From: Loxodes magnus
Lineage: Eukaryota; Ciliophora; Karyorelictea; Loxodida; Loxodidae
DNA: 64,000 bases
NCBI GenBank assembly: GCA_946699065.1
Contig: CAMPDV010000148.1
Coordinates: forward strand, 372,001-436,000
Direction: 5' to 3'
Under the pieces are notes generated by a model. The model was not told where the DNA came from and did no database searches. It saw only the letters and a program-made list of their open reading frames with translations. The position numbers and the translations under genes are program-made. Positions 3,102 through 45,900 of this stretch are shown in pieces (within the stretch, counting starts at the first letter, position 1; each line of letters opens with the position of its first letter).

Positions 3102-3115
3102 TAAAAAATGTTATT

Positions 3116-8519: not shown

Positions 8520-10114
8520 ATGCTTCATTCTTCTCTATTATAACTTTATTCCTTTAAGCCAGCAATTTCTTTATTAATACTTACCAATTGCAAAATTAAA
8601 CTGCTTCAGCATTTCTGTTTGATCCTTTCCTCTTGATATTTTATACCTTTTATACATAATATTATTTACTGTAATGGATCACTCAAAACAATATGAGCAT
8701 TTCTATTCTTATTTCTTCTAACTTATTTTACAGTTTATAGTGATTTAATGAGTTTTGCTTAAGATTATAAAATAAATAAATAAATTCTAACCTAATAAAA
8801 ATGTTTTGCTAGCTGCATTAGTAAAATACTTGCTCTTTCTGCTTTACCTGCTTTTAAACAAAAAACTTAAACAGCTTTATCTGTACACTATGCCAATAAG
8901 AAGAAAAGCATTTGAAGCATAAATATAAAAGTTTCTAAGATAGTTTCAACTGATTTAAGACAAACGCTCATTCTTTATGGTTTGAGCTTTGAAAATATAA
9001 GAAAAATATTGATGAGCTAACAGCTATGTATTAGTAAAATATACTTAGATTGGAAAATTTTATCAAGTCTTAAATTTAAGCTCTAGAAGCTAAATCGAAT
9101 TTTCTATAAACAAAACTTAAGATAGAGTATTGCCTTAAATAGCTTCAATTGATTAGAAGTAAAATTGATATTTCAGACTAATCTGTTATTCCTAAAAGCT
9201 TTTAGACGATAGAAGATTTGAAGTTGATAACTGAAATTTACAACTCTTTTAACTTAAAGACCAACTTCATTATTTATTTACCCCAATAAAAAAACTTATT
9301 ACATATCTTCATTCTTGATACTTCAAAATCACAATCGGAAAACGTACCCTAAATTTTGTAACTTAGTAGAAATAAAATAAAAAATGTCTTATAAAACAAA
9401 AGCGAAATGTAAGAAAAGTAACCTGATGAGGAAGAAAATGAATAATAAATCTAAACAAGCAAGATAAATGAGAATTAATAGAAAAAATACTAATTACTAG
9501 AGCAATAAAAAATATTACTTGGTGATAGTTTAAGATAACGATAATAAGCAGAGCTTGACAAGAGTTCACTATTATTGAAGGAGATAGAGTAACATGAAAG
9601 AAAAATTAATTATCAATGCTAAGTCATTTAAGCTCTTTAAAATTAAGTGGAAAATTTGCAAAATGAAGTTAAAGCTTAAGAGTAAATAATTCCAAATGCT
9701 TAGTCATAATTTGTCAAAAATATAGTAAAGATAAGAGAATCAAGATTTAGTAGATAAGATTAAGTAAAATGGGCATATGCTTTAATTTAGTCTGAAATAA
9801 GTAAATATCCAATGAATTGCGAGTTTTGCTATATTTCTAAAATGGTTCAAAAAATGGAATGTAAACATTTATTCTGTGATGAATGTTTAGAAATGATATT
9901 TGTACAACAATTTTAGACTTACTCCAAAAAGAAAACTTAATATTTATATAATTTTTTGAATTCTAACGAAAATATAATACCTGATGTGATACAGTAATGT
10001 CCTATATGCCTAACTTAACTGAAGTCAGTCTAGAATTGCATAGAAAATGTTGTTGGTTAAGGATTCTAAGTTTATTAACTTAAAAGCCAATTTAATTAAA
10101 GTTATCTCAGATGA
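8520..10114 (+). CDS. RING-finger protein, three exons, complete
   Basis: Likely E3 ubiquitin ligase. Exons 8520-8670, 8734-8979 and 9024-10114 join in frame to 496 codons with TAA/TAG read as Gln. Both introns are short (63 and 44 nt), GT..AG, with CTAAC before the acceptor; the first has a pyrimidine tract. The RING lies at residues 398-461: NCEFC, then ECKHLFCDEC, then QCPIC, a C3HC4 order. Residues 1-100 are hydrophobic and may hold membrane segments; about 225-360 are Gln/Glu/Lys-rich and probably coiled coil. Two in-frame TGA, at 8634 (residue 39) and 8913 (residue 111), sit as SSxYF and SIxSIN; the frame continues past both, so they are probably Trp. The start is the first ATG of the exon 1 frame. 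TGA at 10112 is taken as the stop because the similarity ends there. Substrate unknown. Confidence 0.8.
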
Positions 10115-12559
10115 ATTTACTATCTTTTTCATCTATCAAATAATTATCATTGCATTTATTAAATAAACTTTCTTCATAAGCATTTAAAATGGAAAAAATG
10201 GAAAGACAGATAAGCAAAAAATCCTCCATAATATAATATTGCGATAATAGATAAACGATAAAAGATTGAAGGTATAATTGTTTAATTTTATAGTAATGTA
10301 AATTTTATATAAACATATGAAAAAAGAAAGATAATTAAAATTGAATCCTTCAAGTTTAAATTTAAAATAGATCAATATACTCTAAAATAAATTAAACAAG
10401 TTCCAACTGCTTTATTAGTCTAATTAAGGGGTAGAAGATAAATAAGTACTTATTAGTTTAATTATATTAAATAGTAACTAAGGAAGTTTAACTTTCTATA
10501 GCAAAATTTTAGTTTTTATTCTTATTAAAAGTAGTATAATAAACGATGGAAAGTACCTTTATAAAATTAGATATGAAATAAGTTGCATAGTATATAAATA
10601 TAAGCATTGCTTAAATTTTTATATAGCTAGGCTTGACTTTTTAATTAAAGAATAATTTTCTTCGAAATATCTAAAAAAATTAATTAAAGAGCTTTATTAA
10701 TAAGTGAAGCTAGAATTTAAACATTAATTGAAAATTGTAAATTTGATGATATAGTTGATACACCTAAGATGTGTATTCTTTTTAAATGATTACTTTCTAT
10801 AAAATAAATTGTTATGTTTATATTATAAATTAGTAAATTTATAGTATATCATTTTTACATTTAGTTATACCGTATTTGAATAGAATAAATTTGAATTACT
10901 TTATAAATTAAAAAAGTTTTGCTATATATGAAGGAAAAAAGATTTCGCGCTCTGGGTAAAGATATTTTTTAATTAATTTATTCTTTAATAATTTATAGTT
11001 GAAATAGATGGAAGAGATGATATAATAATCATAGTTTTATATTTAATGCTGCCTCTAAAATAAATTTTAATTTAAACCAGCATGAAACTTTATTTTCATG
11101 ATATAAATAAGTTTAAAATATTCACTTAGTTATTAAAATTAGACACTAAAGCTAATTATACATCTCAGTTTTACCCTTTTTTTAAAAGATCAACAATGAA
11201 TTATTTTAAGTTATCTTCTATTAAATTTGTGAGATTTCTCTATTTTTCTTATCATTCTAAAATTAACTTTTTTTAGTTATTTTTAATATTAAAGTTGACT
11301 GGAGATTTAATTTATGTTCTTTATACTTTTTCTTTTTTCTATTTAATTATGATTTCTATAGAAATATAAAAATCTATCTCTTTCTTTTGATAGGCTTAAG
11401 TTCATAAACTATTTTCTTTAAATTGAATCAATTTCACTCTTTCTATTTTACATTTACTTAGGTAAGCTATAGTGATAAAATAACACAATGAATAGTTAAA
11501 ATCTATAATCATAGATAAACTAAAAGTTAAGAGTTTAATCAATTGTCACTTAATTATAAAAAGAAGGGGATTAGTAAGTTATGAATGTGTATTATTCCCA
11601 TAAACAAGTTAATTAAAGCTTGCAATCGTTTAAGTAAAAAATAGCTTTATATGCTTCTTTTAAAAATTTACCTTTAATGAAAAAATAAGGATTTAATGAA
11701 GGATTATAGAGGGGCATTTGAATTAAAGTTTTAAGGAGTGCAATTATAGGAAAATAAAGAAACTAAAAAACTGAATGTGAGACAATTTATAATAAAGTCA
11801 ACCTGTTAGTTTATAGAATTACTATGTATTCCATTGCTAAAAAGAATAAAAAGAAAAAACCAATATGAATATTAATAATCAAAAGAAAGTTGCAAATTAG
11901 ATATTAAATCAAAAAATATACAAAAGTATATAAAAAATTATTTCATAATAACTAAATAAAGTTTAGATAAATACAAATAAAAGAGTTTAAAATGAGCAAT
12001 TTAAGAGTTAATAAGAAAGAGTAAGCAAATACTAATTTGATAAAAATTGGGAACTTAGAGTAATTAATTTATTAAGTTAATCTAAAGTATGAAGTAGATG
12101 CTAGAAAATATTTTATTCTAGCTCTATTCTCCAAAAGAGCTTTTATTATTAGACTGAGTATTAAATTAACAAATTTAAGGGTATATTTTATTTAATTTCC
12201 TTTTTAATTCAAAAGCTGGCAAATTGACTAATATATAAAAAAAGTTAAACAAAGAGATAATTCAAGGTCTTATAGATAAATTTTACTAAGCTAGCTAGTT
12301 GATTAAAGTCACTTAATCAATAATTATGAAGGAAATTTTTAAAGATATATAGTTAATAACTTTTATTTTATTATTTAATTTTCATGTTTTATTGCATAAG
12401 GAATGCTTTGAGTCTTTCTAATTTTTTAAAATTTTTTAAAATTTTTTTTCTGAAACTAGTAAAATTATTTCGGGACTATTTCTGCATGATTTAATTATTT
12501 CTTGTCTTAAAAAAAATTAAGTTAAATAATGCTTAACTCTAGGGGTTTACTAATAGGAA
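10115..12559. other. AT-rich interval, nothing recognised
   Basis: Long runs of A and T and no family motif on either strand. The RING frame stays open past its TGA to about 10575, but the sequence there is low in complexity, so I do not extend the gene. No repeat shared with the rest of the window was seen. Confidence 0.5.
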
Positions 12560-13160
12560 TAATTTCTATCTTTAATATTTATTGCCTACATTTTTCTTCT
12601 TTTCCATGACTTCATCATCTTTTGGTTTTTTAATACTCAAAATAAGTATTGATTAAACTTAGTTAAAGTTGTTTGAAGTTTAAGAGTGTACTCCAAATTT
12701 AAATCTAATTTAAGTCAAAGTAAGGATTAACTCACCATCTTTAGTTGAAACTTTTTCCACTTCTTATTTCAAATTCTTAAAAGGTGACTTGATGCTTTCT
12801 TAAAGTTGCTTAACTGTTCTTTTTGAATAAATTTTTCTTAATCAGTCAATCAGAGCTGTATACTTTAATAATTCCTTCATTTTCGCACTTTAAGTGAGAG
12901 GTTAATTTTCTCTTATTTTTGCTTCCTAAACATATTTTCGTACCACGTAATTCATTTATTTACCAGGTTTAAAAAATTCTTCTATTTTCGTATTTTTCTA
13001 AAATTTATTGCTAAAATCTAAGTTTTAATTACTACTTTATTTCGAAGGTTATCCGCTTTTCATTATACTGATTTAATTTTAAATTCCTGACTAATTTAAT
13101 CTTAAAACTCTTATATTTTAGAGTTTTTTATTCAATAGCGTTATACTTTGAATTCAAGAA
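12560..13160 (-). CDS. Possible unknown protein-coding segment
   Basis: A minus-strand frame with only one TGA (12842) over about 185 codons encodes a charged, non-repetitive stretch with segments such as KIEEFFKPGKQ, LIDxLRKIYSKRTVKQL and FKNLKQEVEKVSTKDGE. The composition differs from the surrounding A/T runs. No family is recognised, exon limits are unknown, and a second frame here is also fairly open. TGA counts over the three frames (5, 8, 4) give little support. Weak call. Confidence 0.3.
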
Positions 13161-13837
13161 CTGTTTAATCTTCAAATTTATTTTAGCTTATTATTTACAA
13201 GTTGATTCTTTACTTTCCTTCATTCCTGATGCCTTAATTTATACAGTCCCTTATTTTTCCATAGAAAGTAAAATTAATTAGCTTTATTAGCTTCTTCACT
13301 TAATTTCTATTATCTAATTCTTCTAAGTATTTAACAGCGAAGAAATCGAAATAACTAAAAGAGTCCAGCTTTTCTTTTTAAAGTATTTTATAGAAGCATA
13401 ATTTTAGAAGCATCGCTAAAGTAGGATAATGCTCCTTAATCGAAAAAAACCCTTATAAAAGCATGGGAAAATAAAAAATCCGTTAGTAAAACTCCATTCT
13501 CTTAATAAATGCAAGATAAAAAATAGCAAAAAGATACTAAGAAAAGCAAACAAAATAAAAATTTTAGATTTTCCCTTAACTTCTTGAATTCTAATATTTT
13601 ATAATGTAAATCTTTAGAAAAATGTATCTTAAGTTATATAGTATAATAAATTATAAAAGAAATCAAACTTTTAGAGATTTATTAGATACGCTTATTTAAA
13701 TTATAAGTTCATAAATGAATTATTAGAAATTTTATATCTAAAAATACATTTAACAGATTTTTATTATATTTATTATATTTAAATTAATATTTTAAGACAG
13801 TAGTTTTTAAAATTAATAATAAAATCTAGAGAACGAA
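13161..13837. other. Upstream region of kinase-like copy 1
   Basis: AT-rich. The last 80 bp, with TTAATTAATAATAAAATCTAG just before the start codon of copy 1, are nearly repeated before copy 2 at 32880-32947, so the duplicated unit includes some 5' flank. No promoter motif is clear. Confidence 0.5.
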
Positions 13838-16800
13838 ATGTAAAGATTGAATAAAACTATTTAGTAGATTTCTTCAATTCTCATAAGTAAACCAATTTAG
13901 TAATTATATGAGTCAAATGATTTCTCTCTTTACAAGGCAGTTTTCAAGAGTAAAGAACTTAAAATAGTAAAAGAATTTAACTAGAAAGAAAATAGAAATG
14001 CACTAATAGATTTAATTGATGAATTTAAACTATACGAATGTATAAAATAAACAAATATAGATTAGAAATTCTTTTTATAGCCTTAGTATTTCGCGAATGA
14101 TGGAAAGCTTATGATAATTTTTGAAGACATAGAGTTATAGAGCTATTCTACTTTAACTTCATCTCAGATATTTGAGCTAGTTTTACAAGAAGATGAAAGT
14201 CAATAAGTTTATTTGTAGATTCTAACTTAAATAGCAAGTTTATTTCATCAAATGACTCAGCATTTCCCATACTTCTAGATGAGTAAGCTGGCTTGTTTAC
14301 CCTTATTTTTGGAAAAATAATAAAGAGAAGAGCAAATAATAATAATAAGCTTTAAAGATTTAATTGCCTAGCAATATGAAATAAGTTAATAGGGAAAGAT
14401 AGTTTTAAATTAAACTGATTCTACCTTTTTAGCTAGCTTAATCTTATATCTTTTACAAAATAAAGATATAAATCTAGTTTCTTTTAGATAAATTAGCGAA
14501 GTCATCACAAGGAAGGGAACTGCTAAACTAAAAATAGAAGAAGATAATAAAGAATTGAGCAATGATTTATTATATTATATTGTAAGAAATATAAACAGTA
14601 ATCAGTCATTTGATATCTAATTTATGTCCTAGAAGTTAGAGGAATTACTACATTTATAATAGAGTACTTAACATCCTATCAGCTAATGAACTATCTCTAT
14701 AACTTAGGATTAAAACTTACTAAATTTAGATTCACCATAATAAATATAATTAAATTAGCAAATACAGCTAAAGACTTAGAATTATACTTAAGAAATTCTT
14801 AATTTACCTCTAATAGAAGATATAAAATAAAATTATAAAGAAAACTAAATAATCTAGTAATTCATAAAATATTTTGTAAAGGCTCAAGAATAATATCTAG
14901 ACTAGTAAATAATTAAATATATTAAAGCAGAAAAATATAGGATTATGTTCATTTAAACTATTGGCAAAATTAAAATGGAGATATTCTTAATGATAAATCA
15001 AAAAAATTCGGAGGAAAAGTAAAATTAGCAAATCCAACAAGCTAAAATTTTTAAAATAGAAATATTTAAAGATATATCTTAATTTCTTCAATTTTATTAA
15101 TTGAGTAGCCTATAAAATTAAGTTTATTTTGTTCCTAAAGCAAATATAAGCTAAAGGTGTGATGCTAATACTTTTACAGAAGTTAGTGAAATACCTTTTA
15201 TGGAAACTTGCTTAAAGTATGATTTAGTTCCTCTTTCCTAATACTTAAATGACTAATAAGAATTACCCTAAGAATAAATAAGCAGCTTCTTATACTAAAT
15301 CACTTATATTTGTTTAGAGCTATTCATAAATAATTAAGTAGTATTTCCTCTAAATCCTGATATGATACTAGTAGATTAATACTTTCAAGTGATAAAGATA
15401 ATGAACTAACCAATTCCCTTATAAGAAGATAAAGAGAATACCTTGCTACTAAACTACAATCTATAAAACTATTAGTATTTAAGCTATAGCTAAAAATAGT
15501 AAATGCTAAAGTAAAGCTAACTATCCTTTAATTAGCTAATAATTCACTAAATAATAATGATAACTTTAAATCTAGTAACTAAGTAGTAAATAGAGCTATC
15601 TTATAATGAAAATAGTTAATAATAGATATACAAATAATTATTAAACTCGGAAAAGTTGAATAAATACTAATTTAAAGAAGTATTTTTAGAAGCATTATAG
15701 AAGAAAAGTAGTGATATAATAGAGTTTGGTAAAAAAATAGCCTTATTAGAAGAATAGCCATAATACAAGCAAAAATAAAATGCATTAATCTTTAATTAAA
15801 TGCTTAATTAGGTTAACTAAAATACTTTTTCATATGGATATTGATAATAAGCATAATCTATTCTTCCTCTTAGAATATTTCCAAACCATTTTATTAATAG
15901 AAATAACTTAGAATGTTCTAATTCTACAAATTCTTCTTTAAAGAAATAAAATCAACAAAAAGACTAGGAAAACAATAAAAAATAAGAAAATTAAGTTAAG
16001 CAACTATAATAATCTTAAGAGTTATAAAAACTAAAAATTGAAGATCAGTAATGCAAAGAAAATTTAGAAAAATAATAATTCCCACTTGAGCAAGTAAAAA
16101 GCCATGGCAAGTTTAATGAAATTTTAATAGAACCTATTTTTGCAGATAATCTTAAAGAAATATATTATGATCCTTAGCAAATCATTGAAAAAATTAAGTG
16201 ATAGAAATTAAAATATAAACTAAATTAATAACGACAAGTAAAGAAATTATGTAAAGCTCTAGCTTTATATTATTAATAAGAGTTTAACTAAAGTACAACT
16301 AGTCATATAATGTATTAATACTTTAAATAAATAGCTCTTAATTTCCAATTAAATCCTTGATAATTCTGTTGCTATGCTGTGATTTTATAAAGATTTGGTT
16401 TTAAATACTTCAATGAAGAATATACTCTTACACTTTAGCTCTGTGCTTATATGATAATTTAAATAATGACTTAGGACAAAGAAGATATAGTTTATCATTA
16501 GATATTTTAAGAATATACTAACTCTAATGGATTTACATTCCTATATAATAATTTTATCTACTATCTAATAGATTAAAAAGAAAATCTTGTAGTTAAAATT
16601 TTTGAAGTAGTATATACACATAGCTAGCTCTAAGAAAAATTGGAATAAAAGAATGAACAGCGTACAAACTTACAATGAATATAATATATATTGCCTGATT
16701 TAGTTGAACGGAAATATAAAGAAAAATAAGCTAACGAACGTAATAAATAATAATAGCCAAATTAATTAACTTATTAAAAAAGATTAACATGGAAAAGCAT

Positions 16801-17578
16801 GTAACCTCTTGATGTTTGTTCTTCTAAAATGATGCAATCTGATTAGGAAGAATTTAGTTAATTAATAGCTAATCCATAAGTAATTGAAATAATCTAAATG
16901 ATCTAAAAGGACATTAAAATGGTATTTACAAATTCTGAAAAATGGGAAGCCAAAATAGTATTTTAAGCTGAATTGGACAATTTAGTAGATAATTAAACTG
17001 AAAACTAGATTAAAGAAAATCTTTAATTAATTTTGAAACTAACATAGAAAGTTCTGCCGCTTTTTGTGTAGAAGAATAAATAAATTCATTTTGAGGATAA
17101 TTAAAAATTAGATGAAATATACAAAGATAAAGTTTATGCAATTAGCTTAGGATTAATCAATTAAATAAATTAGGATTTTCTAAATTTAATCAAGAAAGTT
17201 CCAATAAAAATTTAGTGTATTTAGAACATATCTTATATCATAATAAATGACCATAATTATTTATTCAAATAAAAGAATTATAAAGATTTAGATGGACAAG
17301 CTTCTAAAAGTGAAGTAGAGAGTCAAGAGGAAAACCTAAAGGAAAAAGAAAAAAAAATAAGCGAAAGTTAAAGCAATTATCATTTTTAAGTTCCTTTTTT
17401 TAAAGATATTATCTTGAAAGGGATTTTTAACAACAAATCTAAGGATCAAGATGAAAATGATGAAAAACACAAAAAATAAAAAACTAAGTAAAAAATTTAA
17501 CTTAATTCAATAAACTCTTTTATATTCTATTTTATAAATTTATAATCAATTTTAATTAAGTTTTTTTCATTTGATTGA
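13838..17578 (+). CDS. Tandem pseudokinase-like protein, family copy 1
   Basis: One frame of 1246 codons with TAA/TAG as Gln. Residues about 35-240 look like a degenerate kinase lobe: YKAVFKSKELKIVKEF as strand 3, KLMIIFEDIE as hinge. Residues about 365-515 form a second: KIFKIEIFKDI, then FPLNPDMILVD where HRDLKPENILV is expected, then VIKIMN in place of DFG. Catalytic Asp residues are missing, so it should be a pseudokinase or scaffold. The C-terminal half is helical, unknown and Gln/Lys-rich near the end. Five internal TGA (14687, 15842, 16199, 16358, 16676) compare with about 19 expected by chance. That at 16358 (NPxQFCC) is kept in all four copies and that at 14687 in copies 1, 2 and 4; Trp is likely. 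Start chosen by the matching ATG of copy 2. Kinase assignment is by motif spacing only. Confidence 0.7.
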
Positions 17579-18113
17579 AAAAAACATTCTGAATACAATT
17601 ACTATTTCTAGAATCTAAAATAAAGAAAATAAAATATAATGTTCTGTACAAGGCTTACATGATATAAGGATTCAAAATGGGGGTAAAGCTGTAGATAAAA
17701 GTTTTAAAATTATCTATTAAGAAAAGTAGTTTAAAATTTATATATAGACAAAATAATCAAGTAGGATAATTAGAAAAACACAAATAAAGAAATTCTCTTA
17801 TTAATTAAGCTTTTATAAGATTCTATATAATTACTACTAAAGTTAATTTATTTTAAAGAAACTAATTAATTTCTATAATAGACTAAGATATTCAATTTCA
17901 TAAAAAGTATTTCATTTATTTAGCTTTTATCTTTCGTAAAATCTTAAATAAGTAATCTTAATGTAAAAATAATTTTAGTTTGCAGGAAGAAGTTATATAA
18001 TTACTTATAGAATCTAAGGTAAATAAAAATGAAAAATTATAGAATTTGCATTTAGTAGTGTAATAGTTATTTTAATAGTATATATTAGTTAACTTCAAGA
18101 ATATATATTAAAA
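17579..18113. other. AT-rich spacer between kinase-like copy 1 and an ORF1 element
   Basis: No coding motif seen. Low complexity, no shared repeat recognised. Confidence 0.5.
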
Positions 18114-19206
18114 ATGGTTAGCTTCAAAGAAGGGTTTTTATACCACCTCCTCAGAGTAGGAGAGAAAACCTGAAGCATTTTCTTCTACCACGTCTTCGCT
18201 TTAATTAGTCCAGTCTTCTTTATTACGAATGGAAGTCAGACTCATAACACAAGCACTCAGACTACACAGAACCAAATTCACTGATCGAATAAGCATGATA
18301 TAATAATACACTCAACGGGAAAAGTTATCAATATATCTATGATTGGACAGACTTCATTAAAAGGAGAAGACTAAAATAAGAAAGGAATTAAGTGGCAAAA
18401 AAAAAGTCGCAATCTAAGCAATAATTTAACAAAAGAATGAACAACTTATTCCAACAAACATCCCTGAAAACTAAATGGTAAGAGTCTACTAAAATGCCTA
18501 TAATGATCTATCAGATATGGTGGCCGCTATTTATTTTAACCACTATCTTGAAAACACTGATTTAGTAGAGAAAAAGGAAATAAACTAAGAAGTGATAAAA
18601 GTGTTCAGGAATCAAATATGGAGCAAGTATGGACAAGCAGTTTCCAAATTCATTGTTAAAGGAAATGAAATAGTATATTTGGTCTTCAACAGTGAAGAAA
18701 GATACTTACAATTCGCGTAATTCAGGGAATGAACATTCAAAGGCGTTAGAATTCCTATCTAAGCAAGAAATTAATTAGAATATTTTGACATTCATACTGC
18801 CCAGCTTACTTCACAATAAACGAATATTCAAAAAGAAGGAAATAATGGAGAAAATGAGATAATATGGAAAATCTAGAGGAGAGGTATAGTATACATACCC
18901 AAATACTAAAATGCTAACAGGTAGTAGTGTAATGTGCCTAGAATTAAAGGATATAGAAGTGGCAAAAAGGATACCAGAAATAATAAACCTGAAAGGAAAA
19001 AAAATGAAAATAAAGCATCCAGTAAATTTTATTTACTGCCTATGCAAATTGAAAGGACAAACAACAATGCAGAAGGGTGGAAGGTAACTAAAAGGAAGAA
19101 ACTACATACAAGAAAATTAGAGATATTTGAAGGAGAAGTTAAATTAACAATAAACAAACCAGAATTAAAACAGATCAAGCAAATAAGAGGATAATTGAAG
19201 AAGGAG
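18114..19206 (+). mobile_element. ORF1-only element with RRM-like domain
   Basis: It starts AAAATGG and encodes the N-terminal signature SFKEGF..Y..L shared with the elements at 31722, 37460, 50518 and 53743. From about 18430 a long frame encodes an RRM-like block: IPTNIPENQMVRVY, then VFRNQIWSKYGQAVSKF, then GNEIVYLVFNSEERYLQFAQF and FKGVRIPI, which matches the beta-alpha-beta order of an RRM. A very basic tail (18934-19194) follows and is free of TAA, TAG and TGA. Such RRM-bearing ORF1 proteins are known from several LINE clades. No polymerase follows; 26 bp downstream begins family A copy 2. It is broken near its N-terminus. Confidence 0.65.
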
Positions 19207-19231
19207 AATAAATTATTATGATATATATAAA

Positions 19232-20076
19232 ATGGCTTCTAAGAAATAACAGAACTTTGAACAAAACATTTAAACAGGAAAATTCTCTAAAAAATAAAAA
19301 AGCGAAATAATTACAATGAATGAAAGCCAGAAATATGATTGATATGACGAACATTAACCACTTGGAAATCCAGAATTAAAAAAACTTCCGACACAAACTC
19401 AAATAGAAATATTATCTAAGTCATTAAAAGAGTTTATGTTCAAAAATAGATATCTCACTGATAAAGTAGAAAAATTATAAAAATTAATAGCGACTTTGCT
19501 TGAGAAACAATATTAAACATCATAAGAAATAGAAAAATAAATGGAACAAAGAATTTTTTAAATTTAATAATAAATCCAGGTGACGCCATTTTCGTTTTAA
19601 CAGAATTAATCAGATCCTATGGAAATGGAAAATGAAGCCTCAAATTAAAATAAACAGCAAGCATTAATTTAAAATAAGTAGTAAATTTAAATTAAATAAT
19701 TGTTATAGGAATAATAGTTTAAAAGAAGAATAAAGTGTTACATGTACAATAAATAACAACAATGAAAATACTGCTACTAACTTAGCGAAATTTAAAGAAA
19801 GAATAAATAAGATATTTTTAGAAAACTATTTAGGATATATCCAACATAAAGCGGTAAAATTTATGGAAAAAATTCTTTAATTCAAATCTTAATCCTTGGA
19901 TAAATAATTAGGAACGCTACGGGCAAGATAAAAACTATTCAGAATATTAAAGGATGATGCACTAATGAAGTGATACACCGCCTAAATCTAGTAGGAATTC
20001 ATGACAAACTAATGGAGACAAGCTGATAGAATAGGTCAGATGGCTGACTACTAAGGCTTTAACAAAGCTTTTTAAC
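19232..20076 (+). mobile_element. Family A element, copy 2 (ORF1-like)
   Basis: Best start of the three copies: ATGGCTTCTAAG. It shares Gln-rich and Cys-rich parts with copies 1 and 3, the segment IRNATGKIKTIQNIKG, and a 3' hairpin near 19950-19985. Where copy 1 has CYVC, this copy reads CYMY, so the Cys motif is eroding here. It lies directly behind the RRM-bearing ORF1 element. Confidence 0.7.
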
Positions 20077-20829
20077 TTTAACTTTATAGAGGAAGTAAGG
20101 GAGGAAAGAAGGAAATAAAACGAGGAGAATAGAAAAATAATTAAAACAGCTAAACAATTAAATAATAAAAAGTTATTTAGGCTAAAAGAATAATTAAGAA
20201 TATTTTTTCTGAATGGAATTGGACAAATGTAAGGCAGAAGGAAAGAGAAATATTCAAAGAATCAAATAAAATAGAAAGCTATCAACTAAATAATAATATA
20301 TAATATAAAAAAATCAGAGAAAAGGATAGGATAAGTGATGGTAAAATCGCTAAACCCTAACAGAAGAAATAGGAAACAAGCAAAATAGCATATGAGTGTG
20401 CAAGGAAAATTGTAAATAAAGAAAAATAAATAGAACAAGCTCAAGAAGAAAAAAAAAAGATGCAAGATAAAAATGAGAAGCAAGAATCAAACTGAAACAA
20501 ATAATTAAAATTTACAATTCTAAGAAACAAAAAAACAAAAATGAACAATTACCAAACAACAATTACCAAACAACAATTAATAGGAAAAGGCAAAAGAAAA
20601 AGAATAAAATAGATAAGAAGAAAGAAAAGATAGATAATAAGTGGAAAAAGATAAAAATAGGGAAAGAAATAATAATAAAAATATGGAAGCAGAGAATGAT
20701 AGACAAAATGAAGGAAAGGTGGAGAAGGAAGATGAATAAAAAACAGAAAGTGGAGAAGAGGAAGCAAAAGGGATGAGTTAAAAATAAGAATAAGTCATAA
20801 AAACAGGGACAGCAAATGTTAGAGGAGTT
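20077..20829 (+). other. Purine-rich stretch encoding Lys/Glu/Gln-rich sequence
   Basis: The plus strand is strongly enriched in A and G. One frame from about 20095 to 20850 has a single TGA and encodes mostly Lys, Glu, Gln, Asn and Arg, including an imperfect ACAATTACCAA repeat at 20549-20577. It could be the tail of a mobile-element protein or a charged host protein. Pyrimidine-rich minus-strand frames here are shadows of this bias. Confidence 0.45.
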
Positions 20830-21243
20830 ATAATTAAAAAAGAAATACTATCTAAAGAATAACTTTATCTCTTAAAATCTTATTTACTATTTCTATTTAT
20901 AAAACATCTTAAAAATTAGCTAAACGTGCAACTAGATTTTGCTTTTTATATTTAATCAGTTACGGTAATATTCTATTTTAATGGATTAAAATCTTAAGAG
21001 GAGTTTTTCGCAATCTCAATACTTATTGTATCTTTTAGTAATTTTATACTAATTATTTAGTAAACTTTTTATTTATTTTTGCTTGTATTATGTCTATTCT
21101 TTTAATAAGGCTATTTTTTTACCAAGATCTATTATATCACTACTTTCTAACTATAATGCTTCCAAAAATATATTCTTAAATTAGTATTTATTCAACTTTT
21201 CCGAGTTTAATATTTAGTCGTTTATCTTTTATTAAATAATACA

Positions 21244-21650
21244 AAATGGATGTCGGCCGCGTAGACAAAATAGGAGGTAATCTAGTGCAATGTATACTGC
21301 ATTGCGAGTAATCTCGCACTAGATGCAACCACGGGGAAGGGTGGATAAGCTCCGATGAGACATACCTAATTTACCCTAAGGGTTCTCTCTAACAGTATGA
21401 AAGTTTGACTGACGGGTCTTCTAATTACCGACTTAATAACAAATTCTTATTTGGACCTTATTTAAGAAGACTGAAGCATTTGACTCAAGATTTAAGAATA
21501 AATTTTAATAAGAAGATTCCCCATTTGGAGAAGCTGACATGACTCATCGGACCTCTAGAATTTTAACAAGAAACATGAGAACATTTTTCTTAATATTAAA
21601 TATTAATATTGAAAGAGCTGCTCACCAATGAGGTGCTACACGCTCTATAG
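21244..21650 (+). mobile_element. Short non-autonomous element S1 with LINE-type 3' hairpin
   Basis: GC-richer insert of about 400 bp without a clear ORF. The 5' part can fold: TCTAGTGCAATG pairs with parts of CATTGCGA..CGCACTAGA. The 3' end (21614-21646) is AGAGCTG-CTCACC-AATGA-GGTG-CTACACGCTCT. It interrupts the pseudokinase fragment, and the word TAGTCGTTT lies on both sides (21215 and 21649), which may be a target-site duplication. This fits a SINE-like parasite of the LINE whose tail is at 57842-58690. Confidence 0.7.
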
Positions 21651-22185
21651 TCGTTTTTATTTATTTATTTAACAATTTTTATTATAAAATAACTCTATTT
21701 ACTACTTATTTACTAGATGTAAAGTTATCATTTTTATTTAGTGAATTATTATCTAATTGAAGGATAGTTATTTTTACTTTAGCATTTTTTATTTCTAACT
21801 ATAGCTTAAATACTAATAGTTTTATAGATTGTAGTTTAGTAGCAAGATATTCTCTTTATCTTCTTATAAGGGAATTGGTTAGTTCATTATCTTTATCACT
21901 TGAAAGTATTAATCTACTAGTATCATATCAGGATTTGAGGGAATACTACTTAATTATTTATGAATAGATCTAAGCAAACATAAGTGATTTAGTATAAAAA
22001 GTTGTTTATTTATTCTTAGGGTAATTCTTATTAGTTATTTAAGTATTAGGAAAGAGGAACTAAATCGTACTTTAAGCAAGTTTCCATAAAAGGTATTTCA
22101 CTTACATCTGTGAAAGTATTAGCATCGCATCTTTAGCTTATATTTACTTTAGGAACAAAATAGACTTAATTTTATAGGCTACGAC

Positions 22186-22540
22186 CAGAGCATAAAGCTG
22201 GAAGCTACTTCCAATTCTAATAAAATAAAGAAAATAATAGAAAACTAATGGGAAAATATTTTCAGGATCTATTGCAATCAAGAAGGTAAACTATACAGAA
22301 AAAATATTCCAGCTAAACGAAGAAGCTCCAAACATATATCATGCAATTAAAGAGTTTAATAAGAAATGAATGGGAAACAATCTATCAGAATTTCTCAGAA
22401 AGAAACAAATTAAAAATCCTTAGGATGTATAATAAACAAGATCCAAGCCAAATATGAAGTTTCTTTTATTTAGCATTAAGCATTTGATTTTTGATAAACC
22501 AAATAAAGGTGAAATCACTTAAATTAATTGATTCATTCAA
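22186..22540 (+). mobile_element. LINE ORF2 fragment (5' part)
   Basis: Encodes AIKEFNKK, FLRKKQIKNPQDV and IKHLIFDKPNKGEI, which look like the region before the reverse transcriptase in LINE ORF2. It is bounded on both sides by minus-strand pseudokinase sequence, so it is an isolated piece, inserted or left by rearrangement. Family assignment is tentative. Confidence 0.45.
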
Positions 22541-22735
22541 TTAATTCATTGTAATTTGCTTTACAAAGTGAGAACTCTTTTGACTCATATAAATACTTAC
22601 TTATTTAAAGCAAGGAAATCTACTGGAGAGGTTGAATGGCTGTTACTTTTAAGTTGTTACCATTTATAGAATTATGAATTAAAAATATAATAAGCATGCA
22701 TTCACTCTCTTAATTTCTTATAAATTTATTCATTT

Positions 22736-23060
22736 AAATTTTATTTAAAATTAATGGAAATAGAAATCTAATTAATATTTTAAGTTATTTAAGGAACCAA
22801 TAAAAACAATAATATAGAGCTAATAAAAATATTAAAAAGCTAGATTTAATTTAAAAAGTAGCATATATAGCAGCAAACAAGGAATTGGTAAAAGAATAAT
22901 AATTAATTTTTAGACTATGAGCAAAATTAATAATTTTTAGAGCTGATCTATTAGAAATATGTATTGATCATGATTAAATATTAGTATTTGCTGAACTTTA
23001 ATACCAGTTTATTTAAAACCTAATTAATATAAATATGGAAACTGTACTTTGTCAAGAATT
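22736..23060 (+). mobile_element. LINE ORF2 3'-terminal fragment
   Basis: Matches the minus-strand LINE tail at 58370-58690 closely: AYIAANKELVKEQQLI here against AYIAADKELIKEQQLI there, then KLIIFRADLLE against KLIIFRAALLE. The zinc-finger part is worn. It is joined head to head with the pseudokinase 5' flank, as at 58690-58780, which marks the shared duplicated segment. Confidence 0.65.
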
Positions 23061-25997
23061 ATCATAACATTATTATAAACTACCAAGTTTTTAAACCATT
23101 TTATTAACTCAAACAAAGTAAGATATTTTTGCATATAAGAGAGATTTTGCTTAACATGGATGTCATAATTAGGATGTTTCCAAATTATAATAGAAAAAAA
23201 TATAAATGTTAACTTTACAAATTTTGAAAATGAAAAAAAACAGAAAATGAAGTTAAATATAAGGATCTAAATAAAATACCTGAGATATTTTTACAGGGCA
23301 AAAACTTAATAAATACAAGAATTTGTAATCAAATTAACTTTAATTCTAACTAGCACAATATGGCCTAAGAAAATGATAATAGCAAAGCGAAATTTATCAG
23401 ATGTGTGGGTAAAAATTCGCATAAAACGATTAAAATTTTTATAAATAATAAGTTAAGAACTTTTACTATAACAAATGTAATGAAGGAAGTAAATATTTTT
23501 CCTATTTTTAAATAGGAAAGTAAGAGTGTTTGGCGTAACTGATATCCTATTACTTTACTAGACCTTTTATTGAAAATATTTGGCAAATCAATATCCTAAA
23601 GATTATATAAGGTCACTTATTATAGAAATGTTTTAATTTGGATTTCTTCTTAAACACTCTACAGCCTAACAAATTTGAAGTATTTAATAGATTATTGATC
23701 TACATCGTAGATGATCTCTTAAAAAATAACTAATTGCCACTCTAATTGACGTAGTTGAAATGCTCGATATTATATCAAGAAATTGCATTTTGATTATTTG
23801 AGAAGACTAAGATTGTCCTTAAACTTAAATCTTGCTTTATAATCATTTCTGACAATATTGATGTTAAGTTTATTATAGATGGCTGCCTTACAAGATCAAT
23901 TAAAATTAATAATGGAGTTCTACAAGGAAGTAGTCATGGTCCTGTGCTTGCTATTTTATACTAAGACATCGTTATAAGATACTTTGAAGAAAACTATGGA
24001 TTTATTATATATAAATAATAGGGAGGAGCAATCCTCCAACTGAAAATTGACTTAAACTCTGATACTAGGAAGTACCCCAAGGTTGAAGAACCAGCCAAGA
24101 GAAGAGAAGATAAAATCGAAGAGGTATCAAGTAGCATTAATGATGAAAGATGCCAGATACTAAGGTCTCTTAGGGTAGTATTCCGATCGCAGCCCTTTAG
24201 AGGACGAAACTCACAAGGGAATGCTAGCACTGTGGAAGATTTCAGCAAGGAATTTTTTTAACTTTAAAAATCTTTATTTAAGAGCTGCGCACCATGAGGT
24301 GTTACTCACTCTATAATCTCATTTATTTATTATTTATCTACTCAAAAAATTTTTAATGTGTTGATTTTTGGATGACCTAATAGAACTTTCAAGTTCATAA
24401 GTGAGTGCTAAAAAATTAATATAAGCCAAAGTTTAAGTTTTCTCTTAAGTAAAGCTTAGCATAAACGATTAAAATTTTGAATTAATTAATTTCTTAAAAA
24501 AGGACCGCAAAAGTTAAATAAACTAAGACATTAACAGATAGTCAATTAACTAAAAAATGTAATTACTTACCTAGGGTATTAGTTAGGAGAAAGAGAAAAC
24601 TAAAAAATTCACTGCGCAGCAAATTCTCTGATTTCAGAATAGCAATCTCTAAAACTATTTCAATTAAATATGGAGTTAATTCTCTTTAGTTTTAAAACAA
24701 TTTGTAGAACTTTTATTTTACCTAAAGCAGAGTATGGTGGTGATATTACAAGTTGGACTATTTTATCAGAACTTAAAGAAATTATAAATAAAATAGCTAA
24801 ATCTTAAAGAATAATACTAAAGATGGCCTTTTGATATTCTACTTTTAATGAATCTTGCTTTATAGATTTAAATTGACTTCCTTTGTCCATTAAGGAGCAA
24901 TGGAGTTCATGTCTTTACTTTAAGCTAAACGAAGTTAGTTAATAGAATCCAGGCTCAGATATTGCCTTTTTTTGTCAAAATGCTATTAATATAATTTGCC
25001 ATATCAGGAATATTTAAGTAAAAGCATCTAAATATATCTACTTGATGTTTAAAAAACTCGTATTTTTCAATAGTTTAATAAGAATCTTACTTATAAAATA
25101 AAAGCAGGCTCTACTCGGAATATTTCCTAAGGACTAAACTTATAACTACTGCAAAAAGAATAACAAATCAAGTATAAAATAACTAAAGTGTGTTTCCTTT
25201 AGTATAATACACGAGATTGAATAAACATCTTACTCAGAAGATTATTTCCATCTATAAACTAAGAACTTACTCTTATTATTTCTAATATTGATTCAGTAAA
25301 CTTCATATTACTATCTAATCAAGTACAGTTTGTATATGTGACTAAGAATTTGACGAATTCGAATACATCTTTATTTACCTTTACTATAAATATTTATGTA
25401 AGGAACAAGTTACTTTTGGGAAAAGATTAGAAGAAGACAATTTTGTAAGATTGTAATTATATTAATTCAAACTTTTCAAGAATTTAAATTCCTAAAATAG
25501 ATAAATTTGTAAAAATATTCCCTACAAAATTATTGAAGAGAAATTAGAAATGCTAAGTTAAAAATTAAAGTTCAATAAATTCCTCAAATGGAAAAGAAAA
25601 AATTTAATAAGAGCATATTCAACTAAATTTGCTAGATGAATTTAAACAAGAAGCTTGATTGAGATTTAATAAAAATAAGGGCTTTATTAGAGCATAATTT
25701 GTTTATCACATTCAAAGTAACTATGCAATTATGTTCCAATATTCAAAATATTGAAACTTTTATATCTATTATTATTATGGATAAATTGAGTCAATTTAAA
25801 TTGGACAAAGTCAAAGTAGAAATAATTCAGTTTTTTATTTCTTATTTATATATTATATTAAATAAAAGCATAATTAATAAAGATATCATGTTTAACATAA
25901 TATCTTTCAATACATCATACACAGCTTGCAGTTATGCACATCATCATTTTATCATTATCATGCATTTCTTAATATATTTAAATTTATCTGCTTGATG
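23061..25997 (+). mobile_element. LINE ORF2 with reverse transcriptase domain, decayed
   Basis: Non-LTR retrotransposon polymerase. In order: NIFPIFKQESK..YPITLLDLLLKIFGKSI (RT block 2, compare NYRPISLL), INNGVLQGSSHGPVLAILY (RT block 4), then, after a 295-bp insert, FILPKAEYGGDITSW and AKSQRIILKM (thumb), LNxLPLSIKEQW (the usual L-H-W-L-P region, with TGA at the Trp), and a C-terminal YMCDQEFDEFEYIF with a worn zinc-finger look. In-frame TGA at 23540, 24832 and 24874 all fall where an aromatic or Trp fits. The frame shifts at least once between 23540 and 23914. The FADD catalytic box is not visible near the insert. The 5' end and endonuclease were not found. Long decayed, not active. Confidence 0.75.
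24021..24315 (+). mobile_element. Short non-autonomous element S2, inserted in the LINE
   Basis: Begins GGGAGGAGCAATCCTCC (a short hairpin), holds a GC-richer body, and ends at 24281-24312 with a variant of the AGAGCTGCGCACC..GGTG..CTCT hairpin. A second copy is at 41054-41360, about 80% alike by eye. It splits the reverse transcriptase between block 4 and the catalytic box, so it arrived after the LINE. No convincing ORF. Confidence 0.75.
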
Positions 25998-32947: not shown

Positions 32948-35900
32948 ATGTAAAGATTGAATAAAACTTTTTAGTAGATTTCCTAACAATATATAAGTGA
33001 ACCAATTTAGTAATTATATGAGTCAAATGATTTCTCTCTTTATAAAGCATTTTTCAAGAATTAATAACTTAAAATAGTAAAAGAATTTAACTAGAAAGAA
33101 AATAGAAATGCACTAATAGATTTAATTAATGAACTTTAACTTTATGATTATATAAAATAAGCTAATATAGATTAGAAATTCTTTTTATAGCCTTAGTATT
33201 TCGCGAATGATGGAAAGCTTATGATAATTTTTGAAGACATAGAGTTATAGAGCTATTCTACTTTAACTTCATCTCAGATATTTGAGCTAGTTTTACAAGA
33301 AGATGAAAGTCAATAAGTTTATTTGTAGATTCTAACTTAAATAGCAAGTTTATTTCATCAAATGACTCAGCATTTTCCATACTTCTAGATGAGTAAGCTG
33401 GCTTGTTTACCCTTATTTTTGGAAAAATAATAAAGAGAAGAGCAAATAATAATAATAAGCTTTAAAGATTTAATTGCCTAGCAATATGAAATAAGTTAAT
33501 AAGGAAAGATAGTTTTAAATTAAACTGATTCTACCTTTTTAGCTAGCTTAATCTTATATCTTTTACAAAATAAAGATATAAATCTAGTTTCTTTTAGATA
33601 AATTAGCGAAGTAATTGCAAAGAAGGAGACTGCTAAACTAAAAATAGAAGAAGATAATAAAGAATTGAGCAATGATTTATTATATTATATTGTAAGAAAT
33701 ACAAACAGTAATCAGTCATTTGATATCTAATTTATGTCCTAGAAGTTAGAGGAATTACTACATTTATAATAGAGTAGTTAACATCATATCAGCTAGTGAA
33801 CTATCTCTATAACTTAGGATTAAAACTTACTAAATTTAGATTCACCATAATAAATATAATTAAATTAGCAAATACAGCTAAAGACTTAGAATTATACTTA
33901 GGAAATTCTTAATTTACCTCTAATAGAAGATATAAAATAAAATTATAAAGAAAACTAAATAATCTAGTAATTCATAAAATATTTTGTAAAGGCTCAAGAA
34001 TAATATCTAGACTAGTAAATAATTAAATATATTAAAGCAGAAAAATATAGGATTATGTTCATTTAAACTATTGGCAAAACTAAAATGGAGATATTCTTAA
34101 TGATAAATCAAAAAAATTCGGAGGAAAAGTAAAATTAGCAAATCCAACAAGCTAAAATTTTTAAAATAGAAATATTTAAAGATATATCTTAATTTCTTCA
34201 ATTTTCTTAATTGAGTAGCCTATAAAATTAAGTTTATTTTGTTCCTAAAGCAAATATAAGCTAAAGGTGTGGTGCTAATACTTTTACAGAAGTTAGTGAA
34301 ATACCTTTTATGGAAACTTGCTTAAAGTATGATTTAGTTCCTCTTTCCTCGTACTTAAATGACTAATAAGAGTTACCCTAAGAATAAATAAACAACTTTT
34401 TATACTAAATCACTTATATTTGCCTAGAGCTATTCTTAAATAATTAAATAGTATTTCCTCTAAATCCTGATATGATACTAGTAGATTAATACTTTCAAGT
34501 GATAAAGATAATGAACTAACCAATTCCCTTATAAGAAGATAAAGAGAATACCTTGCTACTAAACTACAATCTATAAAACTATTAGTATTTAAGCTATAAC
34601 TAAAAATAGTAAATGCTAAAGTAAAGCTAACTATCCTTTAATTAGCTAATAATTCACTAAATAATAATGATAACTTTACATCTAGTAACTAAGTAGTAAA
34701 TAGAGCTATCTTATAATGAAAATAGTTAATAATAGATATACAAATAATTATTAAACTCGGAAAAGTTGAATAAATACTAATTTAAAGAAGTATTTTTAGA
34801 AGCATTATAGAAGAAAAGTAGTAATATAATAGAGTTGTGTTAAAAAATATCTTAGTTAGGAAAGAAGAATCATAATAAACAAAAATAAATATTAAACTTA
34901 TTAAATAAATAAAATATAAAGAAAAATATATAAGGTTAGAAAAAAGTTGAGAATACTCTACAGATTAAATTAAAAAAGTTTTCCAACGTTAAATCTTAAG
35001 AATAAAAGATAACTTAAGCTTATTCTTTAAGTTAATAAATAAAATGTTAATAATAAATGCATAAAAAATTAAATTAAGATATTGAAGATGAATAAAAGAA
35101 AAAATAAAACAAATTACTTGAAAAAAAACCTTATGATGCTTTAAAAACTTTTTAAAAACTTTAATCTAAAATTAAAAGTTTACTTATCGATAAAGATCTT
35201 GCTTAAGATTAAAAAAATATTGATTATTAAAATAATTATAATTAAAGTTAAATAACTTTGATGTAATCAATAGAAAGAATTAAGAGATAAAGATAAATAT
35301 ATAGAAAATATTAGTATCAACAAGTAAAGAAATTATGTAAAGCTCTAGCTTTATATTATTAATAAGAATATAACTAAAGTACAATTAGTCATATAATGTA
35401 TTAATACTTTAAATAAATAGCTCTTAATTTCCAATTAAATCCTTGATAATTCTGTTGCTTTTCCGTGATTGTGTAAAGATTTGGTTTTAAATACTTCAAT
35501 GAAGAATACACTCTTATATTATAACTCTGTGCTTATATGGTAATTTAAATAACGACTTAGGACGAAGAAGATATAGTTTATAATTAGATATTTTAAGAAT
35601 ATACTAACTCTAATGGATTTACATTCCTATATAATAATTTTATCCATTATCTAATAGACTAAAATGAAAATTTAATATTTAGAATTAATTAAATTTTTTC
35701 TACAAGCAAAAATCTAAAAGATCTTTTGAAAATTAAAACAGAATAAAATACTTAATTAACTAGAATAGCTGAAAATCTGTTTAATATTTGCTAATTGAAT
35801 TACTAACTATAAAGACAAATTTAAAATACGGATATATAAGAAATATAAAGTACGAAAACTAGATAAAATTCCAAACTTTAGGAAAATTTATAGATTAATG

Positions 35901-36454
35901 GCTTTAGGTAGTATAAAATATTGCTTTCTGATAAAGAAGAATTAAATAAATTTTTATAATAAGAATATATTTTTAGAATAATGAAGACAGTTTACCAGAA
36001 TTATGATGTTTATGAAAAAGTTACAAAAAAAGTAAATTAAGATGCTTAAAAAGAACCAAAATAGATGTAATAATAGCTTAAAGAGCTCATTGATTAAATC
36101 AAATCTTTAGAATTTAATGGAATATTGCCTCTTTCAATACAAAGGTAAAGAAAAGTTAAATTTGAAGAGAATGAAGAATAAATTGTAAATCGATAAAACG
36201 GAAACTAGAAGAAAAACTCTTCTATAATTAGTAAATAAGAAATAGAATAATTAAGCAAAAGCGTAAAAAATTTATTAAAAATAGTTCCAGTTAAATTATA
36301 GAGTTCTTAAACCATATCATACGATTTGGTTTATAAATTATGACAAGATGGGTTATTTTAAAGAATCAAATCACATTCTCAAGAAAAATAAATTACTTTA
36401 AGTTAGAATAGAAAAGAAGGAAGTTTTTGTTTATAAGCAAAAAATCAAGATTGA
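32948..36454 (+). CDS. Tandem pseudokinase-like protein, family copy 2
   Basis: 1168 codons in one frame. The first 630 codons are about 97% identical to copy 1 by eye, including the in-frame TGA at 33797 (849 bases from the ATG in both). From about 34850 the sequence departs completely into a Lys/Asn-rich linker, then rejoins the family at KKLCKALALYYQQE near 35330, with TGA at 35444 in NPxQFCC. Another TGA at 36341 reads VYKLxQDGLF, a good Trp context. The C-terminus differs from all other copies (SDKEELNKFLQQEY, then LEFNGILPLSIQ). TGA at 36452 is taken as the stop. The frame is intact across the block borders, which argues for a functional gene. Confidence 0.7.
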
Positions 36455-42293: not shown

Positions 42294-42961
42294 TTTTTTC
42301 CATTAATTAATTTAACTAACTTTTTAAAAATAAAAATGCTTTGTTTTCTTTTAAGATGCTTACTTAATATTAAATTTTTTTTATTTAATAAAGATAATAA
42401 TATGAGGCGATTATGTCTATTTATTATATTTTTCTAAGAAAAAAAAGATTAAATGAAAATATTAAATGTGCCAATAATTAATCTTAATCTAAAATTTCAT
42501 CAACTTAAGATTCAGTTTGAATTAATATACTTTCAAATTTCTATTTGATTATATATTTTTCTAGTTCTTGCATATAAAAAAAATAAAAGTGGCGAATTAA
42601 ATTAAACATTTTTTGTTTTTTCGTTTTTAAAAATGTTGCTAATATTTTTATAATTTAGAAAGAATAAAAATTAAAAAAAAGAAAAAATTTTTTTTTTAAA
42701 GTATTTTGTTATTTTTATAAAGCAAAGCCGTTCAAAAAATATAAGATCAATAATATTATATAGTAATTTTCAAATTAAATTATAAGAAAAGTTGTAAATT
42801 CTCTTAAATATTTTAATGAGTTATAAAGAAAATTAAATAAAGGTAAAATTTCTAATTATTATTAAGATTTATTAGAATTTTATAAGTTAATTATTTCCTT
42901 ATATTTTTATTTCTTTAAGAATAAATTAATTTAGTTGAATATTAAGAACTAGCGAATCTAG
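42294..42961. other. AT-rich spacer before kinase-like copy 3
   Basis: No gene. Unlike copies 1 and 2, the flank of copy 3 has no AAAATCTAGAGAACG word before the start codon. Confidence 0.5.
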
Positions 42962-45900
42962 ATGGAAATGAAAGAAAAGGTAGATGTCTTAAAACATATT
43001 AAAAAGCTTTCAAACCTATAAATTTATAAAGGAGATCCAATATGGTAATCATAGAGTTGTTCTATTTATACAGCAGCTACAGAGAGATAAATGCAAATAG
43101 TGAAAGAGTTTTCTTTTCCAAATAATAAGAAAACGTTAATAAATTTTTAAAAGGAGATAGAAATTTATTAGTATATCTCACAAAAAGAAAAATCTTATTT
43201 TTTGCAGCCTTAGTTTTATATTTAAAATGAAAAAGAGCTTAGTATAATTTTCGAAGACAAAGAAATTAGACAAACTCTAAAAGAAATAACTTCCTAAGAG
43301 TGATTTTAATAAAGATTCGAAAAAGTAAGTATAAAATAGATTTCCTTATCGATTCTGATTCTCTTAGCTTAATTTTATGAAGCTTATGAAAATTCTTCAT
43401 TCATAGAATGGAAAAACTTCGAATATTTAATAATGTTCTTTAACTCAGAATAAGAACCATGACAACTAAAATTTATCTTTAAAGAGTAAATATTTCATGA
43501 AGCTCCGAGCATCAAACAAGAGCAGGATGAAATTAAAAAAGATTTCATAATAAAATTTATAAGTTTGACTTTATTCCTTCTATAAAGTAAGTATAGTAGA
43601 TTATAAAACTTCTAGTAGATTTATGAAAACATAATAAGAAAAAATGGCTTTGAGATTTAAATTAAAGAAAACAGCTTGGAAGATATACAAAATTATAATC
43701 TTTTAGATTATATTATAAGGAAGATAAAATTAAATTAGCCACTTGATTTAAATTTTATCACACTATTACTAGAAGAAATACTTTAATAATTCCATAAATT
43801 ACAAGCTATCTAAAATTTATCAGGCTTAGAAAATAATTTTTATAAAAGATAAATTTAATGAAGAAGGGATTAAATCTAGAACTACACTAAAGAAATTTTA
43901 AATTTACCTCTAATAGAAGATATAAAATAAAATTATAAAGAAAACTTATAAATCTCAACCTTCATAAGATATTTAGAAAAAACATTAAATAAATATTTAG
44001 ATTAGAAAATACTTCAATTTCTTAAAGCATAAAGATATAGAGTCATATTCATTCAAACTATTGGCAAAATCAAAATGGAAATATTCTTAATGATGAATCA
44101 AAAAGATGCGGATGAACATTAAAATTAGCAAATCCAACAAACTAAAATTTATAAATTAGAAATAGGAAATATTGGTTTAGCTTTATAGTCCTATTCGATG
44201 TAAAGTTTCCCTTACTTCATCCCTAAAAAAATCACAAATTAATGATGCGAAACTAATACTTTTACAGAAGTTAGTGAAATACCTTTTATGGAAACTTGCT
44301 TAAAGTATGATTTAGTTCCTCTTTCCTAATACTTAAATGACTAATAAGAATTACCCTAAGAATAAATAAGCAACTTTTTATACTAAATCACTTATATTTG
44401 CTTAGAGCTATTCATAAATAATTAAATAACATTTCCTCTAAATCCTGATATGATACTAGTAGATTAATACTTTCAAGTGATAAAGATAATGAACTAACCA
44501 ATTACCTTATAAGAAGATAAAGAGAATACCTTGCTACTAAACTACAATCTATAAAACTATTAGTATTTAAGCTATAGCTAAAAATAGTAAATGCTAAAGT
44601 AAAGCTAACTATCCTTCAATTAGCTAATAATTCACTAAATAATAATGATAACTTTAAATCTAGTAACTAAGTAGTAAATAGAGCTATCTTATAATGAAAA
44701 TAGTTAATAATAGATATACAAATAATTATTAAATTCAGAAAAGTTGAATAAATACTAATTTAAAGAAGTGTTTTTAGAAGCATTATAGGAGGAAAGTAGT
44801 GATATAATAGATTTTAGTAATAAAATAGCTTTATTAGAAGAATAGCCACACTATAAAAAATTATTAATAACAAAATTAATTTAAGATTACTAATATTAAA
44901 AAAACAATATAAATTCAGTAGATAGTTAAAGCACACAAGTTTTTAATTAAGTATTAAATTAAGTTAAATAAAAAACTATATAAAATGAAAAAAATTAATT
45001 GGAAATTCCTTATTATGCCTTTAGAGAACTTGAGAACCAATCTATAAATGGAATGTATTTAAAAAGTTTCAATGCTAAATAAATTTCAAAGAAAAACTAA
45101 GAAAGCAATAAAAAAATAGAAAATGAAGTTAGGTAACTATACTAATCTTAAATATCTTAAATACAAGAAAATTAAATTCAATAATGCAAAGAAAATCTCC
45201 GAAATGAATCATTTTTACTAGAATGAGTAGAAAAATATAAAAAAATTAATAAATATTCAAGGAAGCCTGATTTTGAAAAGAATCCAGACGAAGTATATAA
45301 TATTTCTCATTAATCAATAGAAAGAATTAAGAGATAAAGATAAATATATAGAAAGTATTAGTATCAACAAGTAAAGAAATTATGTAAAGCTCTAGCTTTA
45401 TATTATTAATAAGAATATAACTAAAGTACAACTAGTCATATAATGTATTAATACTTTAAATAAATAGCTCTTAATTTCCAATTAAATCCTTGATAATTCT
45501 GTTGCTTTGCTGTGATTTTATAAAGATTTGGCTTTAAATACTTCAATGAAGAATATACTCTTACACTTTAGCTCTGTGCTTATATGATAATTTAAATAAT
45601 GACTTAGGATGAAGAAGATATAGTTTATCATTAGATATTTTAAGAATATACTAACTCTAATGGATTTACATTCCTATACAATAATTTTATTCATTATCTA
45701 ATAGATTAAAAAGAAAATCTTGTAGTTAAAATTTTTGAAGTAATATCTACACATAGCCAACTCTAAGAAAAATTGAAGTAAAAAACGGAAGAGAATACTA
45801 AGGTATAAAGTACAATTGATAATCTGTTTAATGTATTTTTAAAAAAAGAAATGCTTGATAAAAGCATTAGAGAATGTAATAGATATAAATAGGAAAATTA

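Follow-up and report, generated by a model that had tools for sequence, protein, structure and literature searches.

The nuclear genetic code of karyorelict ciliates is reportedly to be credited to Seah et al. 2022. In the consulted text of PMC11441545, this code (NCBI table 27) is used by karyorelicts, Loxodes included; UAA and UAG (UAR) encode glutamine and UGA is tryptophan or stop, with UGA being the sole stop codon, standing for tryptophan as well at a sufficient distance upstream of the poly(A) tail, and with coding UGA depleted in the codons directly ahead of the stop. The code of Condylostoma magnum resembles the one considered here in that each of the three stop codons has an amino-acid meaning as well and in that a nuclear tRNA-Trp(UCA) was not found in either organism, but differs in that all three codons serve as stops there, whereas the actin genes here end in UGA (Swart et al. 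2016, PMC4967479, as far as the consulted part of that paper goes). For tryptophan tRNAs that keep the CCA anticodon and have lost the top pair of the anticodon stem (4-base-pair (bp) stem tRNA-Trp(CCA)), near-cognate reading of UGA has been reported from other organisms. According to the sections consulted of PMC13092985 and PMC12005148, the 4-bp-stem forms of Blastocrithidia and Condylostoma increase read-through of UGA in reporter assays in T. brucei and yeast, and a tRNA of this kind is reported in Loxodes, citing Swart et al. Here we examine the reading of UGA in a stretch of 64,000 nucleotides from Loxodes magnus (the window; positions 372001-436000 of contig CAMPDV010000148.1, hereafter C148:372001-436000) and in the assembly containing it.

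The window has a G+C content of 20 to 28% per 2 kb, and its assembly comprises 705,730,643 bases in 7843 contigs; the L. magnus macronuclear assembly is given as 706 Mbp in the consulted text of PMC11441545. A first-pass annotation of the window had proposed that UGA is read as tryptophan in a genome that also reads UAR as glutamine, and this was borne out genome-wide. UGA is present at tryptophan positions of many genes and at the C-terminal ends of actins. We conclude with great confidence that in the L. magnus genome UAA and UAG encode glutamine and UGA encodes tryptophan inside a gene and stops translation at the gene end, as in table 27; no difference from the karyorelict code was found in the description consulted (PMC11441545). 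This Loxodes code is already published, and there is nothing essentially new in confirming the UGA reading. The tryptophan identity of UGA is not established from the window by itself.

The residue assigned to UGA was examined in protein kinase domains, for which 136 PF00069 matches (5592 first-look candidates) were scored and the best 40 taken regardless of TGA. The first-pass annotation had named the confinement of UGA to gene ends as the observation that would speak against its proposal; instead, 20 of the 40 kinase domains contain internal in-frame TGA, with 29 such codons among 10179 (0.28%). It had also suggested tabulating the residue that matches in-frame UGA, and in a MAFFT alignment 20 of the 29 TGA codons fall in columns otherwise occupied mainly by tryptophan. 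The tryptophan column of the DxWSxG motif is encoded by 27 TGG, 10 TGA and 3 tyrosine codons, a second tryptophan column by 10 TGG, 7 TGA and one TTT, and the column of the HPWF motif by 19 TGG, 3 TGA and 7 other codons. Among residues sharing a column, the enrichment of tryptophan was 84-fold for TGA, of which 28 of the 29 codons were scored, and 83-fold for TGG. Glutamine was likewise enriched at TAA (5.0-fold), TAG (5.8-fold) and CAA (7.7-fold), and the control codons returned their own residues, cysteine for TGC and arginine for AGA. When one of these kinases was compared with PDB chains, the TGA of DxWSxG faced tryptophan in all three alignments shown and that of HxWF in two, the third ending short of the site. 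Recoding of UGA as cysteine is known from other ciliates such as Euplotes. For L. magnus, a cysteine or selenocysteine reading has a vanishingly small chance of being correct, as against it stand the 84-fold enrichment of tryptophan at TGA columns and the absence of cysteine from the five most enriched residues there; it is refuted for the kinases tested.

Actin genes inform on both ends and interiors. The C-terminus was reached in 45 actin alignments. In 42 of them the codon following the last aligned residue is TGA; in two, TGA comes one codon later, and in one it is not within reach. The alternative of a Condylostoma-type code, in which UAA and UAG end genes besides UGA, implies identical internal reassignments; it is nevertheless extremely unlikely, given that TGA forms 44 of the 45 actin ends, with neither UAA nor UAG among these (in one family with few distinct sequences), and that UGA is named the sole stop of L. 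magnus in the consulted text of PMC11441545. The first-pass annotation had left the choice between the two codes undecided; on the basis of these actin ends and that publication, the karyorelict form is favoured and the Condylostoma form is not. About 40 actin matches had near-equal scores, many of them on contigs C266, C711, C707, C524 and C437, and the 30 of these loci that were read (L031-L060) hold two distinct protein sequences.

For internal TGA, 20 of 96 actin matches (L061-L080) were picked mostly for showing TGA, several of which are broken or distant copies. Of 20 internal TGA codons placed relative to actin ends, 19 lie at least 36 codons from the end, the exception being in a copy with 23% identity; these are few codons for judging depletion. 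The 14 TGA codons of the paralogues L061-L069 face tryptophan seven times, phenylalanine five times and glutamine and glycine once each. Paralogues at 66-74% identity show TGA facing tryptophan in intact frames, UAR in actins most often faces glutamine (95 cells), and the TGA of one actin faces tryptophan in the sole PDB alignment shown.

Within the window, all eight TGA coordinates named in the first-pass annotation hold a TGA in frame with the quoted context. Several belong to a family of four copies, listed here with coordinates that denote the stretches aligned and are not proved gene starts or ends:

13988..17575, + strand, family copy 1; in-frame TGA at 14687, 15842, 16199, 16358 and 16676; next TGA at 17576
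33101..36340, + strand, family copy 2; in-frame TGA at 33797 and 35444; next TGA at 36341
42941..46735, + strand, family copy 3; in-frame TGA at 43301, 43460, 43859, 44243, 45224 and 45491; next TGA at 46736
58811..62659, + strand, family copy 4; in-frame TGA at 59642, 61109 and 61376; next TGA at 62660
16358..16360, + strand, TGA of the NPxQFCC site in copy 1; same site at 35444, 45491 and 61376, kept in all four copies

The aligned stretches are 1080 to 1283 codons each and together (4824 codons) contain 16 TGA, 6 TGG, 415 TAA, 148 TAG, 106 CAA and 22 CAG. TGA makes up 0.33% of the family codons, 4.6-fold less than its 1.53% on the window's + strand, and its share in the family is near that in the 40 kinase domains. 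The TGA depletion and the conservation of the NPxQFCC site had both been claimed for this family and held, but its description as kinase-like did not: Pfam at E ≤ 0.1 gave no kinase match for any of the four copies, with a single weak, unrelated match for copy 2 (E 0.083), and when part of copy 4 was compared with PDB sequences, the best E value was 0.19. AlphaFold models of two family parts were poor, with a mean predicted local distance difference test score of 49.4 and 31.0. A second TGA, preceding TISITQ, is common to three copies. Over the 80 codons that follow the NPxQFCC TGA, the ratio of nonsynonymous to synonymous differences (pN/pS) in frame was 0.12-0.45 across six pairs of copies (Fisher p 0.00095 to 0.095), and in the other two frames mostly higher, though not in every pair. 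Selection is evident in these 80 downstream codons in the frame of the NPxQFCC UGA, and this UGA is therefore most likely translated through. Judged from these sequence comparisons, the family is probably translated through its UGAs, that of NPxQFCC being the best supported. With 129 family residues as query, 119 places in the genome were matched; along the contig, the family extends on both sides of the window (C148:369052-480697).

A number of results weigh against reading these UGAs as tryptophan, or reduce the support for the code as a whole. Among kinases, 9 of the 29 TGAs lie outside tryptophan columns, and over all 20 actin loci only 10 of 32 TGAs face tryptophan. The sample of actin ends represents one family, and 30 of its 50 loci carry only two distinct protein sequences. 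In the window family, the six pairs are not mutually independent, and the 40 codons before NPxQFCC hold too few differences for a selection test. The ratio of nonsynonymous to synonymous substitution rates (Ka/Ks) was 0.60-1.02 from the first shared TGA to NPxQFCC and 0.51-0.94 in the tail, and these regions are therefore little constrained. Finally, no family TGA column has TGG in another copy; the codons opposite are AGA, AGG, AGT, TTA, TTG, CTA, ATA, AAT, GAG and CAA. A codon-usage log-odds scan for coding versus non-coding sequence did not separate even its positive controls.

Three further examples had been put forward for UGA recoding in the window, a long interspersed nuclear element (LINE), a RING gene and a gene at 1-3101, with the following features:

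23540..23542, + strand, first TGA of the LINE-like stretch, which is decayed; frame mod 2, in the context RNxYPITLL; a candidate at which tryptophan would suit
24874..24876, + strand, second TGA of that LINE-like stretch; frame mod 1, a different frame from 23540
8993..10114, + strand, open frame spanning 373 codons up to a terminal TGA at 10112; matches RING weakly

The two LINE TGAs had been cited as in-frame codons of otherwise intact frames, but they do not share a frame. The reverse transcriptase-like blocks of this stretch are spread over TGA-rich frames, and six translations of it (three frames, two halves) gave no Pfam match at E ≤ 0.01. By these sequence features the LINE copy is decayed, and the reasoning that decayed frames should contain frameshifts therefore counts against this example. 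More than 30,000 LINE-classified elements are present per assembly, most of them incomplete and hence likely inactive, according to the consulted text of PMC11441545. The RING gene had been described as having clean introns, with TGAs at 8634 and 8913. Both TGAs are in frame mod 0, upstream of the RING frame (mod 2), and a splice-path search into that frame found three candidate introns and one TGA (8634), leaving 8913 off the path. The cost of this path was 2.8 compared to a shuffle mean of 1.77, with 177 of 200 shuffles costing the same or less, and the RING match itself is under the Pfam cut-off (14.5 versus 25.2 bits, E 0.037). For the supposed gene at 1-3101 with its ITLxQN context, the corresponding frame of 1-3300 holds 14 TGA in 1100 codons, about 16.8 being expected; there is no TGA depletion, and therefore nothing marks the frame as coding. 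The LINE, RING and 1-3101 examples cannot stand alone as evidence for UGA as tryptophan.

An alternative explanation, which fits locally, holds that UGA is only a stop codon (table 6) and that TGAs inside the frames of the window reflect decay or frame errors. That explanation agrees with the decayed LINE-like stretch split over frames, with a RING upstream part no better than shuffles, with 1-3300 being without TGA depletion, and with parts of the four-copy family having Ka/Ks near 1. As an account of the code, it is very improbable and genome-wide already refuted, since it conflicts with the TGAs found in half of the kinase domains, 20 of 29 at tryptophan columns, and with the intact actin paralogues in which TGA faces tryptophan.

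In order to identify a tRNA that could read UGA as tryptophan, the assembly was searched with tRNA-Trp patterns. A tRNA-Trp with a UCA anticodon, as the first-pass annotation had suggested looking for, gave 29 places compared to 25 for the control, a negative outcome within the limits of a pattern that requires a GGTTCRA T-arm and lets divergent genes escape; the consulted text on Condylostoma reports the same (PMC4967479). None of the 18 of these 29 places that were examined was called a tRNA by ARAGORN or the Rfam tRNA model, and Rfam at E ≤ 1 returned only four short pieces resembling transfer-messenger RNA (tmRNA). The same pattern with a CCA anticodon gave 127 places compared to 14 for the control, and of the 100 listed, 48 are on C67 and 50 on C148. 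The tRNA-Trp loci are as follows:

C67:482323-491201, tandem tRNA-Trp(CCA) array, period about 188 bases, 48 listed places
C148:155464 to about 169200, tandem tRNA-Trp(CCA) array, period mostly 241 bases, 50 listed places
C110:362510, 422984 and 470103, tRNA-Trp(CCA) with an intact 5-bp anticodon stem, U27-A43 (L107-L109)

The C148 array is on the window's own contig, about 200 kb ahead of the window, and a truncated tRNA-Trp copy (L106) follows the C67 array. Ten ARAGORN-called copies from both arrays are tRNA-Trp(CCA) with the anticodon stem (27-31/39-43) broken at the top, the broken pair being U27.C43 on C148 and A27.C43 on C67 (standard numbering, assigned by hand). They share the CCA anticodon and the broken top pair with the 4-bp-stem tRNAs of other organisms, and differ in the identity of the mismatch, in the two large tandem arrays and in the three intact-stem copies beside them. 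One of the latter, L108, is possibly a pseudogene, since conserved bases of its T-loop and D-loop are substituted. A pattern allowing any base but C at position 43 matched only the three C110 copies and one place on C7736; as it additionally requires GCGC ahead of the anticodon arm and AGG behind it, other tRNA-Trp genes may escape. A similar pattern found no G27-C43 tRNA-Trp in the assembly.

On the basis of these sequences, the UGA decoder in Loxodes is probably the 4-bp-stem tRNA-Trp(CCA). The rival proposal, that a cognate tRNA-Trp(UCA) reads internal UGA, corresponds to the usual route of stop reassignment (PMC13092985 and PMC12005148, in the sections consulted), and a divergent UCA gene could escape the T-arm pattern, as the C110 copies did. 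We consider it unlikely in view of the near-equal counts for the UCA pattern and its control, the lack of any tRNA among the places examined and the large excess of CCA places. A repeated tRNA-like element in which CTTCAGA precedes a good T-arm (seven places, L081-L087) was rejected as a UGA-reading tRNA: ARAGORN called no tRNA, and the Rfam matches, present at four of these places, were only short and tmRNA-like. From one copy (L082), this element is taken for a decayed leucine-like tRNA or a tRNA-derived repeat.

Other translation-related loci in the window and the assembly are:

window 3125-3197, - strand, tRNA-Lys(CTT) gene
window 54397-54476, + strand, tRNA-Leu(AAG) gene
C2:1762690-1763037, - strand, best match to the eRF1 N-domain
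C196:19713-20081 and 54613-54981, + strand, two weaker eRF1 N-domain matches

The tRNA arrays suggest how internal UGA could be decoded. Internal UGA would be read by the abundant tRNA-Trp(CCA) in which the top anticodon-stem pair, 27-43, is broken, and termination at UGA would prevail only near the 3' end of the transcript, the published context. A possible, though doubtful, extension is a division of labour in which the amplified 4-bp-stem class (at least 98 array places on C67 and C148) reads both UGA and UGG, with the few 5-bp-stem copies (three on C110, perhaps one on C7736) reading UGG. Such a copy-number split between broken-stem and intact-stem tRNA-Trp was not found in the open-access literature searched and is possibly unreported. 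If it is true, the high dose of the 4-bp-stem class would out-compete the release factor at internal UGA. Taken with the kinase and actin results, the published code without a dedicated stop codon is confirmed by independent tests, and the sound evidence in the window is set apart from decayed sequence that merely resembles recoding. The tRNA arrays would provide a concrete account of how UGA in Loxodes can be read as tryptophan and yet still end proteins.

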